Source: Acidobacteriota bacterium (GTDB lineage: Bacteria > Acidobacteriota > Aminicenantia > Aminicenantales > Saccharicenantaceae). From it: a stretch of DNA of 47,515 bases. Shown here in pieces: positions 18,136 to 47,315 of this stretch. Below the pieces are notes generated by a model, which had not been told where the DNA came from, made no database searches, and saw only the letters and a list, made by a program, of their open reading frames with translations. The stretch lies in the NCBI GenBank assembly GCA_029571905.1, contig JAKPXU010000125.1:1-47515 (forward strand). Reading direction: 5' to 3'. A program made the translations under genes and the position numbers. Every line of letters starts with the position of its first letter. The first letter of the stretch is position 1.

Positions 18136-20160
18136 ATGAGTGAGAAACCATTTGTCCCGGAAAAAACTGATCAGCGAGAATTTACTCTGCGGGCGGTCTT
18201 GCTTGGACTGGTAATGACTGTCATTCTCGGTGCAGCTAATGCTTATCTTGGTCTCAGGGCAGGCATGACCATTGCTGCTACTTATCCAGCCGCAGTTATT
18301 GGTATGGCTGTACTTAAAATGATGAAAGGCTCAATTCTGGAAGAAAACATGGCCAGAACGGTTGGCTCAATCGGCGAATCAGTTGCAGCCGGAGCTATCT
18401 TTACCATTCCGGCTTTTCTAATTACCGGAGTCTGGACCAAATTCAACACAGTTAGTGCCTATCTCCAGTCGACAGCTCTGATGTTTGTTGGCGGCTTGCT
18501 GGGAATTCTATTTGTTACCTTCCTTAGACGGATCATGGTGACTGACCCGGAATTGCCTTTTCCCGAATCAGTAGCCGCGGCTGAAATTCATAAAGCCGGT
18601 CAAAAGGGCAGCGCTGGAGCAAAATTTTTGTTCCAGGCCATGGGAGTTGGCGCTCTGATCTATTCTCTTGGCGTAGTTCAGTTATTTTCTGCTGCTAAGG
18701 AATTTATCATCAAGTTGGGTAAAATTGGTTCAAGTTTTGTTCGCCTGGGCGCTTCCAAAGAAGCAGGTACTATCAGCACGGGTGGAGTAGTTAGCGTCTC
18801 TGGCCCTGGGATTTCTCCGGCCTATGTTGGCGTTGGCTATATTATTGGTCCGCGCCTGGCCTCCCTTAACTTTGCCGGTGGCGTCCTGGCCTGGGGCCTG
18901 TTTGCGCCGCTTTTGATGTATTTTCTCGGACCGCAATTGATCGAAAAATTTTATGGTCCAGCTATGGCTATGGCTGATGTCCCCTGGCCAGATCTGATCA
19001 GCAATGTCTGGAAATTCATCATCAGACCCATTGCCGTTGGGGGCATGCTGGTTGGCGCCGGTTACACTCTTTTCAAGATGAGAAAAAACTTGATGACTGG
19101 CATTAAGAGATCCATAGGCGATGTCAAAAAGGCTGCCGGCCAGACCGAAGCTACCAGCCGTCTGGAAAAAGACCTCAACATTCGGCTGGTGCTGTTTTTG
19201 TTGCTGTTTACAGTTATCCTTATGGTTTTTGTTTATAAAATGTTTATAGGCAGTTATTTGCCGGCAATTCTAGCAGCCGTGGTGATGGCAGTTTTTGGCT
19301 TCTTTTTCGCCGCCGTCTCTGGAAACCTGGTCGGAACGATCGGCTCTTCCAATAATCCTATATCAGGATTAACTCTGTCGACCCTGATCATTGCCGGCTT
19401 GCTGATGGTTCTTATCGGTGCAAGAGGGACCAGTGGAATTATTGCCGTTTTAGGTGTAGCTTCAGTGGTCTGTGTTTCCTCAGCTGTGGCGGGTGAAATG
19501 CTGCAAGATCTAAAGGTCGGACATATTCTGGGAGGAACTCCCTGGAAGATGCAGGTCGGTGATATTCTCGGAGTTCTTGTAGCTTCCCTTGTTCTTTATT
19601 TCCCTTTAATGATTCTGCACGGAGCTTTTACTTTCGGTAGCAAAGACCTGCCTGCTCCCCAGGCTGGTTTGATGGCGGCTATAACTCAGGGTATCGTCGG
19701 CGGGGAAATGGCCTGGCCTCTGGTCATTGTCGGTATGATGATGGGCTTTGCCCTGATCCTGGTCAGAGTCAGTTCCCCCATGCTGGTGTCAGTAGGTATG
19801 TATCTACCCCTCGAAACAACCTTCGCTATATTTATCGGTGGCATGATCAAGGGGATTCTCGATCGTCAGACAGCCAGAAAGAAACTTAATCCAGCTCAAA
19901 AAGCCAGGGCAGAAAATGTTGGAGTTCTCCTGGCGGCCGGTTTGATTGCCGGTGAAGCTCTGACCGGGCTGGTTCGGGCCGGCTGGAAATTCTTCTATCT
20001 CCAGGGTATTGTGGGCAAGGATATACCAATTATTTTTGCTCATCCCAGCTATCTCCTGGGACTGGCGGTTCTGGTTTTGATCGGGCTTTATCTGGTGGCT
20101 GTTCCTCTCAGAAATGCTGGTGCTCCCGATGAGCCACCGCCACCCTCCGCCGTTGTCTGA
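18136..20160 (+). CDS. OPT family oligopeptide transporter
   Basis: 674 aa polytopic membrane protein. The N-terminal region FTLRAVLLGLVMTVILGAAN and YLGLRAGMTIAATYPAAVIGM are the OPT family opening. ITGVWTKFNTVSAY, ELPFPESVAAAEIHKAGQKG and the late GTIGSSNNPISGLTLSTLI segment are conserved in prokaryotic OPTs. It is predicted to import oligopeptides or related compounds in symport with protons; some OPTs move metal chelates instead. The ATG follows AAAGGAG. The gene stands between the divergent mre operon and def-fmt and has its own promoter. Confidence 0.94.
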   Translation: MSEKPFVPEKTDQREFTLRAVLLGLVMTVILGAANAYLGLRAGMTIAATYPAAVIGMAVLKMMKGSILEENMARTVGSIGESVAAGAIFTIPAFLITGVWTKFNTVSAYLQSTALMFVGGLLGILFVTFLRRIMVTDPELPFPESVAAAEIHKAGQKGSAGAKFLFQAMGVGALIYSLGVVQLFSAAKEFIIKLGKIGSSFVRLGASKEAGTISTGGVVSVSGPGISPAYVGVGYIIGPRLASLNFAGGVLAWGLFAPLLMYFLGPQLIEKFYGPAMAMADVPWPDLISNVWKFIIRPIAVGGMLVGAGYTLFKMRKNLMTGIKRSIGDVKKAAGQTEATSRLEKDLNIRLVLFLLLFTVILMVFVYKMFIGSYLPAILAAVVMAVFGFFFAAVSGNLVGTIGSSNNPISGLTLSTLIIAGLLMVLIGARGTSGIIAVLGVASVVCVSSAVAGEMLQDLKVGHILGGTPWKMQVGDILGVLVASLVLYFPLMILHGAFTFGSKDLPAPQAGLMAAITQGIVGGEMAWPLVIVGMMMGFALILVRVSSPMLVSVGMYLPLETTFAIFIGGMIKGILDRQTARKKLNPAQKARAENVGVLLAAGLIAGEALTGLVRAGWKFFYLQGIVGKDIPIIFAHPSYLLGLAVLVLIGLYLVAVPLRNAGAPDEPPPPSAVV

Positions 20161-20211: not shown

Positions 20212-20240
20212 TTGCTACGGTCAGGCTTCTGGTCTAAAAT
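20212..20240 (+). promoter_or_regulatory. Promoter for def-fmt, positioned for a leaderless mRNA
   Basis: TTGCTA, a 17-bp spacer and TAAAAT end 9 nt before the def ATG at 20250. Transcription normally begins 6-8 nt after the -10 box, so the 5' leader would be about 0-3 nt. No Shine-Dalgarno lies in the gap (AAATGCATT). Confidence 0.55.
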
Positions 20241-20249
20241 AAATGCATT

Positions 20250-20762
20250 ATGGCTGTTTTAAAAATATTAAAAGTTGGCCATCCCTTACTGGGTCAAAAA
20301 GCCAGGCCAGTTGAAAATATTAATCAGGAAATCGTAGACTTAGCCAGGGATATGGTAGAGACCATGTACCGGGCACCAGGAGTGGGATTGGCCGCTCCTC
20401 AGGTGAACCAGGGAATAAGGCTGATCACTGTCGACCTATCTGTTGGTGAAAATAAAGATGAGCTCTTTATTCTGGTTAATCCTGAAATTGTGGAAGAATC
20501 AGGAAAAATTACGGCTGAAGAAGGCTGTCTGTCCGTGCCAGGGATATATGAAAAGTTAGAACGTCCAGAAAGAGTGGTGGTAAAAGGGTATGACCTTAAT
20601 GGTCGAGAGATCGCCATTGAAGCCCGGGATCTTCTGGCCAGAGCTTTTGCTCACGAAATAGATCATCTTGAAGGCAAACTCTTTATTGACAGGCTATCTC
20701 CACTCAAAAAAAGCCTGATTAAAAATCGAATAAAAAAGGAGCAGGAGAAAGTCTCCACCTGA
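20250..20762 (+). CDS. def: Peptide deformylase
   Basis: 170 aa. All three active-site motifs are present: GVGLAAPQ (44-51), EGCLSVPG with the metal ligand C93, and HEIDH with H135, E136 and H139. It removes the formyl group from the initiator methionine of new proteins. The start MAVLKILKVGHPLL agrees with the family N-terminus, so the ATG at 20250 is firm although it has no ribosome site. The stop overlaps the fmt start by one base (TGATG), the usual def-fmt coupling. Confidence 0.97.
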   Translation: MAVLKILKVGHPLLGQKARPVENINQEIVDLARDMVETMYRAPGVGLAAPQVNQGIRLITVDLSVGENKDELFILVNPEIVEESGKITAEEGCLSVPGIYEKLERPERVVVKGYDLNGREIAIEARDLLARAFAHEIDHLEGKLFIDRLSPLKKSLIKNRIKKEQEKVST

Positions 20763-21694
20763 TGAGGGTAGCTTTTTTTGGCAGTCCGGCTGTCGCTTTG
20801 CCTGCTTTAAATAGCTTAATTCAGGCCGGACATGAAATAAAACTGGTTATTACCCAACCCGACCGCCCAGCCGGTAGGGGAAAAAAATTAACCCCGCCTC
20901 CGGTTAAAGTTTTCGCCCGCGACCATGGTCTGCCCTGCCTTCAACCAGAAAAAATCAGGCGAGACGAACAGGTGCTGGAGGCTTTAAAACAGGCTGATCC
21001 AGAGGTCAATGTGGTCGTAGCTTATGGTCAGATAATTCCGGCTTCGATTATCTTCTTACCTCCCTTTAAGACTCTTAATGTCCATTTTTCTCTCTTGCCC
21101 AAATACCGTGGTGCTGCTCCTGTCCAGTGGGCTATTTTAAATGGAGAAAGGGTAACCGGGGTGACTATTATAGAGCTCAACGAAAAGATGGATGAAGGCC
21201 CGATTCTGGCTCAGCGGGAAGTTGAAATTCTACCTGGAGAGACTGCTCAGGAGCTGGAGATCAGGCTGTCTTACCTGGGTGCCCAGCTTCTAATTAATAC
21301 TCTGGCTAAAATTAATGAAGTTGAACGAATCGAGCAGAACCCGGCGCTGGCTACCTATGCACCGAGGTTGACCAAAGAACATGGAAAGATTAACTGGCAG
21401 GAACCAGCCAGAGTGATAGACCTCAAAGTTAGAGCCTTGTTCCCCTGGCCAGGAGCCTTTTGCTTCTTAGAGGGGAAAAAATTAGATATACTGACCGGCC
21501 AACCTATCTCCGGCCTGTTTCCGGGCTCTTCTCCAGGAGAAATAGTCCAGATTGACAGAGCTGGCATTTATGTTGCCTGTGGTCAGAATACGGCCTATCT
21601 GATAGAAAAAATAAAACCAGAGAGCAAAAAAGAAATGCCGGCTTACGCCTTTAGCCTCAGCAGGAAGATCAAGATTGGGACCAGGTTAACCTGA
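20762..21694 (+). CDS. fmt: Methionyl-tRNA formyltransferase
   Basis: 310 aa, normal length. The folate and catalytic region is seen as NVHFSLLPKYRGAAPVQWAI (SLLPxYRGAAP motif) followed by GVTIIELNEKMDEGPIL. The N-terminal VAFFGSPAVALPAL begins the Rossmann-like fold, and the C-terminal OB-like tRNA-binding domain starts at about residue 205 (YAPRLTKEHGKINW precedes it). It formylates initiator Met-tRNA using 10-formyl-tetrahydrofolate. It is translationally coupled to def through the overlapping TGATG. Confidence 0.97.
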   Translation: MRVAFFGSPAVALPALNSLIQAGHEIKLVITQPDRPAGRGKKLTPPPVKVFARDHGLPCLQPEKIRRDEQVLEALKQADPEVNVVVAYGQIIPASIIFLPPFKTLNVHFSLLPKYRGAAPVQWAILNGERVTGVTIIELNEKMDEGPILAQREVEILPGETAQELEIRLSYLGAQLLINTLAKINEVERIEQNPALATYAPRLTKEHGKINWQEPARVIDLKVRALFPWPGAFCFLEGKKLDILTGQPISGLFPGSSPGEIVQIDRAGIYVACGQNTAYLIEKIKPESKKEMPAYAFSLSRKIKIGTRLT

Positions 21695-46444: not shown

Positions 46445-47277
46445 GTAAATTCAAGGGAAATATCAGATGAACGAAAAGAATGAGTCAACGCCCCGACTGA
46501 AATAAAGTTGACTCCAGTCAGAGCAATTTCTCTGACTGTTTTTATATTAACTTTGCCCGAAACTTCCAGCGCAACCCGGCCAGAAACCATTTCCACAGCC
46601 TGTCTGATCGCCTCCAGCTTCATGTTATCAAGCATGATAATATCCGCTCCGCCCTTCAGGGCTTCCTCCACTTCTTGTAGATTAGTGGCTTCAATTTCTA
46701 TTTTTACGCCTGGGCGGACCTTTTCTTTAGCCTTTTCCAGGGCAGCCGTTATACCTCCAGCTATTCTAATATGGTTATCTTTAATAAGCATCATATCAGA
46801 CAAGCTCATTCGGTGATTTTTGCCTCCTCCAACTCTCACTGCATATTTCTCCAGTTCCCGCCAGCCGGGAGTTGTTTTTCTGGTATCAAGAATAGCGGCT
46901 CCTGTTCCCTTGACTTCCTCAACAAAGGCTCTGGTCATGGTGGCAATGCCTGATAATCGCTGGAGAAAATTTAGGGCTGTTCTTTCGGCTTTTAAAATGG
47001 AGTTAGCTCGACCTGAAATTTCAGCCAGAATGTCTCCAGGAGAAAACTGATAGCCATCATTTTTTGCTGCTGTCAACTTGACTTCTTCATCTACCGCCGA
47101 CAGAACCCTGACTGCAATTTGCAGACCAGCCAGCACTCCCTTTTCTTTGGCCAGAAAAATGGCTGAAGTCTCAAGACTGGCTGGCACAATAGCCTCAGTG
47201 GTGATATCGCCAGCTGGCAAATCTTCTTCAAGAGCAAGGACAATCAAATTATCAAGCTTTTTTTGGTTTATATCCAT
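46441..47277 (-). CDS. nadC: Nicotinate-nucleotide pyrophosphorylase (quinolinate phosphoribosyltransferase)
   Basis: 278 aa, normal length. The N-terminus LALEEDLPAGDITTEAI matches the family exactly, fixing the ATG at 47277. The active-site segment is DTRKTTPGWRELEKYAVRVG, followed by GGGKNHRMSLSDMMLIKDNH. It joins quinolinate and PRPP to nicotinate mononucleotide. There is no ribosome site; instead a promoter ends 9 nt before the ATG, implying a leaderless mRNA. It is the first gene of the nadC-nadB pair. Confidence 0.97.
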   Translation of the reverse strand: MDINQKKLDNLIVLALEEDLPAGDITTEAIVPASLETSAIFLAKEKGVLAGLQIAVRVLSAVDEEVKLTAAKNDGYQFSPGDILAEISGRANSILKAERTALNFLQRLSGIATMTRAFVEEVKGTGAAILDTRKTTPGWRELEKYAVRVGGGKNHRMSLSDMMLIKDNHIRIAGGITAALEKAKEKVRPGVKIEIEATNLQEVEEALKGGADIIMLDNMKLEAIRQAVEMVSGRVALEVSGKVNIKTVREIALTGVNFISVGALTHSFRSSDISLEFT

Positions 47278-47286
47278 AATAGGTTG

Positions 47287-47315
47287 ATTATAGAAATAGT
47301 TAGGTACTGAGTCAA
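47287..47315 (-). promoter_or_regulatory. Strong promoter for nadCB, positioned for a leaderless mRNA
   Basis: On the minus strand TTGACT, a 17-bp spacer and a perfect TATAAT. The -10 ends 9 nt before the nadC ATG and the gap (CAACCTATT) has no Shine-Dalgarno. The predicted transcription start falls 0-3 nt before the start codon. Confidence 0.65.

Follow-up and report, generated by a model that had tools for sequence, protein, structure and literature searches.

The genes def, encoding peptide deformylase, and fmt, encoding methionyl-tRNA formyltransferase, lie together in a 47,515-nucleotide stretch of DNA from an Acidobacteriota bacterium. This stretch, referred to below as the window, corresponds to contig C42 in a draft genome of 1.88 Mb (231 contigs, 82% complete), and we analyzed it with a genus set of 19 genomes of Candidatus Saccharicenans (Aminicenantales, Acidobacteriota). 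Relatives of its def that carry a name belong to Candidatus Saccharicenans and Candidatus Aminicenantes, which places the bacterium in Aminicenantales. The def product scores 168 bits against TIGR00079 at a cut-off of 104. A gene for an OPT transporter on the same strand ends at position 20160, 89 bp upstream of def. In the remaining space there is a promoter-like pair of hexamers, the second of which lies so close to the def start codon that def is very probably translated from a leaderless mRNA. The features discussed here are collected in Table 1.

Table 1. Features of the def and nadC loci in the window.
Feature	Position	Strand	Basis or remarks
-35 element of the def promoter, TTGCTA	20212..20217	+	TTG in 19/19 genus genomes, 2.0 bits/base; 17 bp from -10
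Spacer of the def promoter, 17 bp	20218-20234	+	Sequence
-10 element of the def promoter, TAAAAT	20235..20240	+	Invariant in 19/19 genus genomes, 6 or 9 nt before ATG
Gap between -10 and def ATG, 9 nt	20241-20249	+	Sequence
Predicted transcript start: A of ATG (20250) or purine 20247 (3-nt leader)	20247..20250	+	Distance from -10
def start codon, ATG	20250-20252	+	Sequence
def, peptide deformylase, 170 aa	20250..20762	+	PF01327, TIGR00079
fmt, methionyl-tRNA formyltransferase	20762..21694	+	TIGR00460, 294 bits; ATG overlaps def stop (TGATG)
nadC, quinolinate phosphoribosyltransferase, 278 aa	46441..47277	-	PF01729, PF02749
nadC promoter and start, TTGACT-17-TATAAT-9-ATG	47275..47315	-	Sequence; layout conserved in 18/18 genus genomes with nadC

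The original prediction for this locus, a TTGCTA-17-TAAAAT-9-ATG arrangement before def that lacks a ribosome-binding site, proved exact at positions 20212-20252. The two hexamers match nine of the twelve consensus bases and fit the pattern of sigma-70-type promoters, in which hexamers resembling TTGACA (-35) and TATAAT (-10) are spaced 16-18 bp apart. No Shine-Dalgarno (SD) motif precedes def: the longest match to the anti-SD sequence between -19 and -3 is GGT, and def lacks the AGGAGG-like motif 5-10 nt upstream of the start that defines SD-led genes. It shows the TANNNT box that so-called TA-led genes carry some 10-15 bp before the start codon, with the first T of TAAAAT 15 bp from the ATG in the window and 12 or 15 bp from it genus-wide. 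A TA-led gene should have a correctly assigned ATG or GTG start; the ATG of def is the first possible in-frame start, with a stop codon 15 nt upstream, and orthologues of def begin at the same residue. An RNA structure or riboswitch at the def start was considered and rejected, given that there was no credible Rfam match and that folding was not unusual (z -1.5 and 0.3). An out-of-frame ATG is present at 20243-20245, 2 nt past the -10 element and before the def start, and it also occurs in genome G006 (L049).

Taken by itself, the def site is not significant, as a 1.9-kb region contained three promoter-like sites, with 1.7 expected. Its significance derives from conservation and from the pooling of sites genus-wide. 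Every one of the 19 genus genomes has TTG-17-TAAAAT before def, with TTG and TAAAAT each at 2.0 bits per base, even though the surroundings have diverged: mean conservation is 0.60 bits per column in the spacer and 0.32 in the 17 columns upstream, and no two of the 19 sequences are identical. The gap between the -10 element and the ATG is 6 nt in 11 of these genomes and 9 nt in the other 8, and the base before the ATG is a pyrimidine in every one. Among the genomes with a 9-nt gap, position -3 is a purine in 8/8 and positions -2 and -1 are always pyrimidines, so that both the A of the ATG and position -3 are plausible transcript starts. We also observed a TG that is strongly conserved in the def spacer across the genus (20230-20231 in the window, where its two bases precede the -10 element by 5 and 4 positions; T in 19/19, G nearly so) and lies off the usual extended -10 position.

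Following the proposal that a genome-wide scan should reveal this geometry, we counted TTGNNN-(16-18)-TANAAT-gap-ATG in four-base gap bins in the 19 genomes. A variable-gap search (N{0,30}) was not used for counts because it reports only some gaps per promoter. The geometry was enriched genus-wide, with 635 matches at gaps of 6-9 compared to 330 at 2-5, 416 at 10-13 and 477 at 26-29, and with 122 matches of the reversed pattern at gaps of 6-9. The 6-9 bin ranked highest of the four bins in 17/19 genomes (Wilcoxon p <1e-4 against bins 2-5 and 10-13).

A test per gene, comprising 1108 called starts in stretches of the congeners G017 and G003 compared with shuffles, gave a concordant result. These stretches were picked regardless of matches, except for G017 C14 and G003 C1, which were picked for carrying def; earlier per-gene statistics were discarded because their contigs came from the match list, which biases them upward. 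TANAAT occurred at gaps of 6-9 in 33 of the 1108 genes compared to 11.7 in shuffles (sd 3.6; Poisson tail 2e-7), and in 6 and 14 genes in the adjoining bins. Among 60 anagrams of the same composition, TANAAT ranked first at gaps of 6-9, and 46th, 52nd, 30th and 22nd at gaps of 0-3, 2-5, 10-13 and 14-17, respectively. An independent and indirect sign is that a pyrimidine preceded the start codon in 22/33 TA-led genes compared to 387/1075 others (36%; p=0.0004), the excess that transcription beginning on the A of the ATG, next to a pyrimidine, would produce. The anti-SD sequence, which we read from the 16S rRNA genes of two congeners since none was found in the draft genome of the window, is intact (GGATCACCTCCTTTCA). 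Judging from these data, SD initiation is general in the genus, with about half of the genes carrying an SD motif, and leaderless initiation is a real but minority mode that is predicted for about 2-3% of genes by a strict test.

Sixteen matches open a reading frame of at least 50 aa in the sampled stretches of the genome from which the window comes. All sixteen recur in G017, with an orthologue, the same start residue and the same promoter class. They include def, nadC, undecaprenyl diphosphate synthase, a phosphoglycerate mutase, an EPSP-synthase-family enzyme with MurA-like sequence, a CarD-family protein, asparaginyl-tRNA synthetase, a heptosyltransferase, an AmiC-like amidase, a CDP-alcohol phosphotransferase-like protein and a phosphoglycolate-phosphatase-like HAD protein; the remainder are proteins without a clear family. 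The earlier view of leaderless initiation as a regular strategy of this organism is thus borne out in that the arrangement is recurrent, through the genus-wide enrichment and the 16/16 sites shared with G017, but not in its extent, given 33/1108 genes with about 12 expected. Leaderless-type promoters conserved in G017 precede the genes of two proteins encoded on the minus strand, one of 137 aa that matched no Pfam family (L063:14593-15003; 49% protein identity) and one of 88 aa with a hydrophobic N terminus (L074:3022-3285).

Our preferred reading, which we consider very probable on the sequence evidence, is that def has a housekeeping promoter of the sigma-70/SigA type, that its mRNA begins at the ATG or at most about 3 nt before it, and that def is translated without a leader and fmt by reinitiation. 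RNA polymerase bound at TTGCTA-17-TAAAAT would begin the mRNA on the first base of the ATG or no more than about 3 nt before it. A transcript starting there would have no room for an SD motif, and the out-of-frame ATG at 20243 would not be part of it. The 5'-terminal or near-terminal AUG would then be bound directly by a 70S ribosome with initiator formylmethionyl-tRNA (fMet-tRNA), and translation of fmt would follow through termination and reinitiation at TGATG. GGAG motifs before fmt are located at least 15 nt upstream of its start, and fmt is probably translated by such coupling and is not leaderless itself. Because the ATG of fmt overlaps the stop codon of def, the leaderless start is restricted to def. 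The suggestion that leaderless initiation drives synthesis of both the formylating and the deformylating enzyme therefore applies at the level of transcription, whereas at the level of translation only def would be leaderless.

Some observations weigh against this reading. In the genome of the window alone, gaps of 6-9 gave 26 matches compared to 18, 18 and 16 in the other bins (one-sided p=0.15), so that a preferred -10 distance beyond chance is apparent genus-wide and in two congeners but is not significant in this draft genome. The absence of SD motifs from all 33 TA-led genes, compared to their presence in 51% of genes overall in the 1108-gene sample, is partly forced, because the hexamer lies where an SD motif would be. 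For transcription to begin precisely at the ATG, 9 nt is a slightly long gap, and a leader of 3 nt is as likely. def may also be transcribed in part from further promoters upstream or by readthrough of the OPT gene.

In a stronger form of the latter possibility, def would be transcribed mainly from farther upstream, either by a distal promoter or by polymerase continuing past the OPT gene. Translation would then start on a leader that lacks an SD motif, and ribosomes coming from the preceding gene might or might not take part. The proximity of the OPT gene on the same strand, and the end of this gene recognizable before def in several relatives, are compatible with this idea, and leadered genes without an SD motif exist generally, about half of the genes here lacking the SD motifs tested. 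However, distal transcription leaves unexplained both the invariance of TTG-17-TAAAAT in 19/19 genomes and the distance preference across many unrelated genes. A longer leader would also contain the out-of-frame ATG at 20243, an awkward feature there and a harmless one only where the transcript begins past it. We therefore regard predominantly distal transcription as unlikely.

Start-site choice in bacteria varies by a few bases, and the hexamers could be the genuine def promoter while polymerase starts earlier, giving a main transcript with a short leader of at least 4 nt. This is very unlikely, since the -10 element ends 6 nt from the ATG in 11/19 genomes, with hardly any space for a leader, and in genomes with a 9-nt gap transcription beginning 7 nt past the -10 element gives a leader of 3 nt. 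Finally, AT-rich sequence can resemble a promoter by chance, and the expected frequency of promoter-like sites given above, together with the weak enrichment in the genome of the window, would be in keeping with a coincidence. Set against the invariance of the def promoter in the genus, TANAAT near def in most relatives at the level of the order, and the genus-wide enrichment of the layout, chance is extremely improbable.

The promoter of nadC had been noted for its identical 17/9 layout, and it matches exactly. We nevertheless rejected this agreement as evidence, because the def gap is 6 nt in 11/19 species: what is constrained is a distance of roughly 6-9 nt, and the 17/9 identity of def and nadC is incidental. 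A TTGAC-type -35 element with TATAAT 7-9 nt before the start is present in 18/18 genomes of the genus in which nadC was found, and a similar layout occurs in most of the order-level relatives examined. Across the order, more relatives preserve the layout from promoter to start at nadC (L321-L339) than at def; no TTG-type match was found before nadC in L330, L334 and L337.

For def, we compared the upstream regions of 31 relatives from the order outside the genus (L050-L060, L261-L280). TANAAT was located at a gap of 6 in 4 of them (G019, G037, G043 and G052), of 3 or 10 in 2, of 15-21 in 20 and of 25-32 in 3, and was not found before def in the remaining 2. The relatives with gaps of 15-21, whose predicted leaders would be about 8-14 nt, often have GGA, GGAG or AAGGA before def (for example, G034, G046, G027 and G021). 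Across Aminicenantales a promoter thus usually stays near def, whereas a leader would be present in some lineages and absent in others, an apparent switch between leaderless and short-leader initiation. def could serve as a natural comparison for initiation-mode switching, with a start codon either 6-9 nt (leaderless) or 15-21 nt (short leader, often with an SD-like stretch) past the -10 element.

Extra fMet-tRNA reportedly enhances the translation of leaderless mRNAs strongly and changes that of SD-led mRNAs little (PMC9031893). Leaderless initiation might make def-fmt responsive to its own pathway, that is, to the supply of formylated initiator tRNA, an attractive proposal that we regard as quite unlikely. 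If it were true, an ample supply of formylated initiator tRNA would increase deformylase output from a leaderless def with coupled fmt, and lineages with a short leader on a nearby def promoter would be without this link.

A literature search joining leaderless mRNA with Aminicenantes, with most subscription journals outside its reach, returned no paper. The leaderless start predicted here is a known mode of protein initiation that would be newly documented in the Aminicenantales group, so that an uncultured order would join those with leaderless expression, here in the form of a small conserved set of housekeeping genes. As a practical matter, gene callers should not reject starts in Aminicenantales for want of an SD motif. 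TA-led leaderless genes were predicted in 3/3 Acidobacteria genomes, at 13.3% on average, and changes of initiation signal were related to phylogenetic distance (Zheng et al. 2011, PMC3160421). def shows the same TA-led pattern, with the first T 12 or 15 bp upstream of its start, although the share of such genes looks smaller here under a stricter test (33/1108, with about 12 expected). In the passages of that study that we consulted Aminicenantales are not named, and conservation gene by gene and the change between leaderless and short-leader initiation at a single gene are added by the present work.

The predicted def transcript resembles the leaderless mRNAs known from mycobacteria and Deinococcus (PMC4633059, PMC9031893) in having a start codon at or near the 5' end and no SD motif, and in coexisting with SD-led genes. 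Leaderless genes are expected to have leaders of 0 to about 5 nt and to be initiated by 70S ribosomes in a manner resistant to kasugamycin. In bacteria in which such mRNAs have been studied, the terminal AUG is bound directly by 70S ribosomes (PMC9031893), and by analogy this route would apply to def as well. The systems differ in extent: leaderless mRNAs make up nearly a quarter of transcripts in mycobacteria, where 5' ends were mapped, and up to 60% of genes in D. deserti, compared to the small share predicted for Candidatus Saccharicenans.
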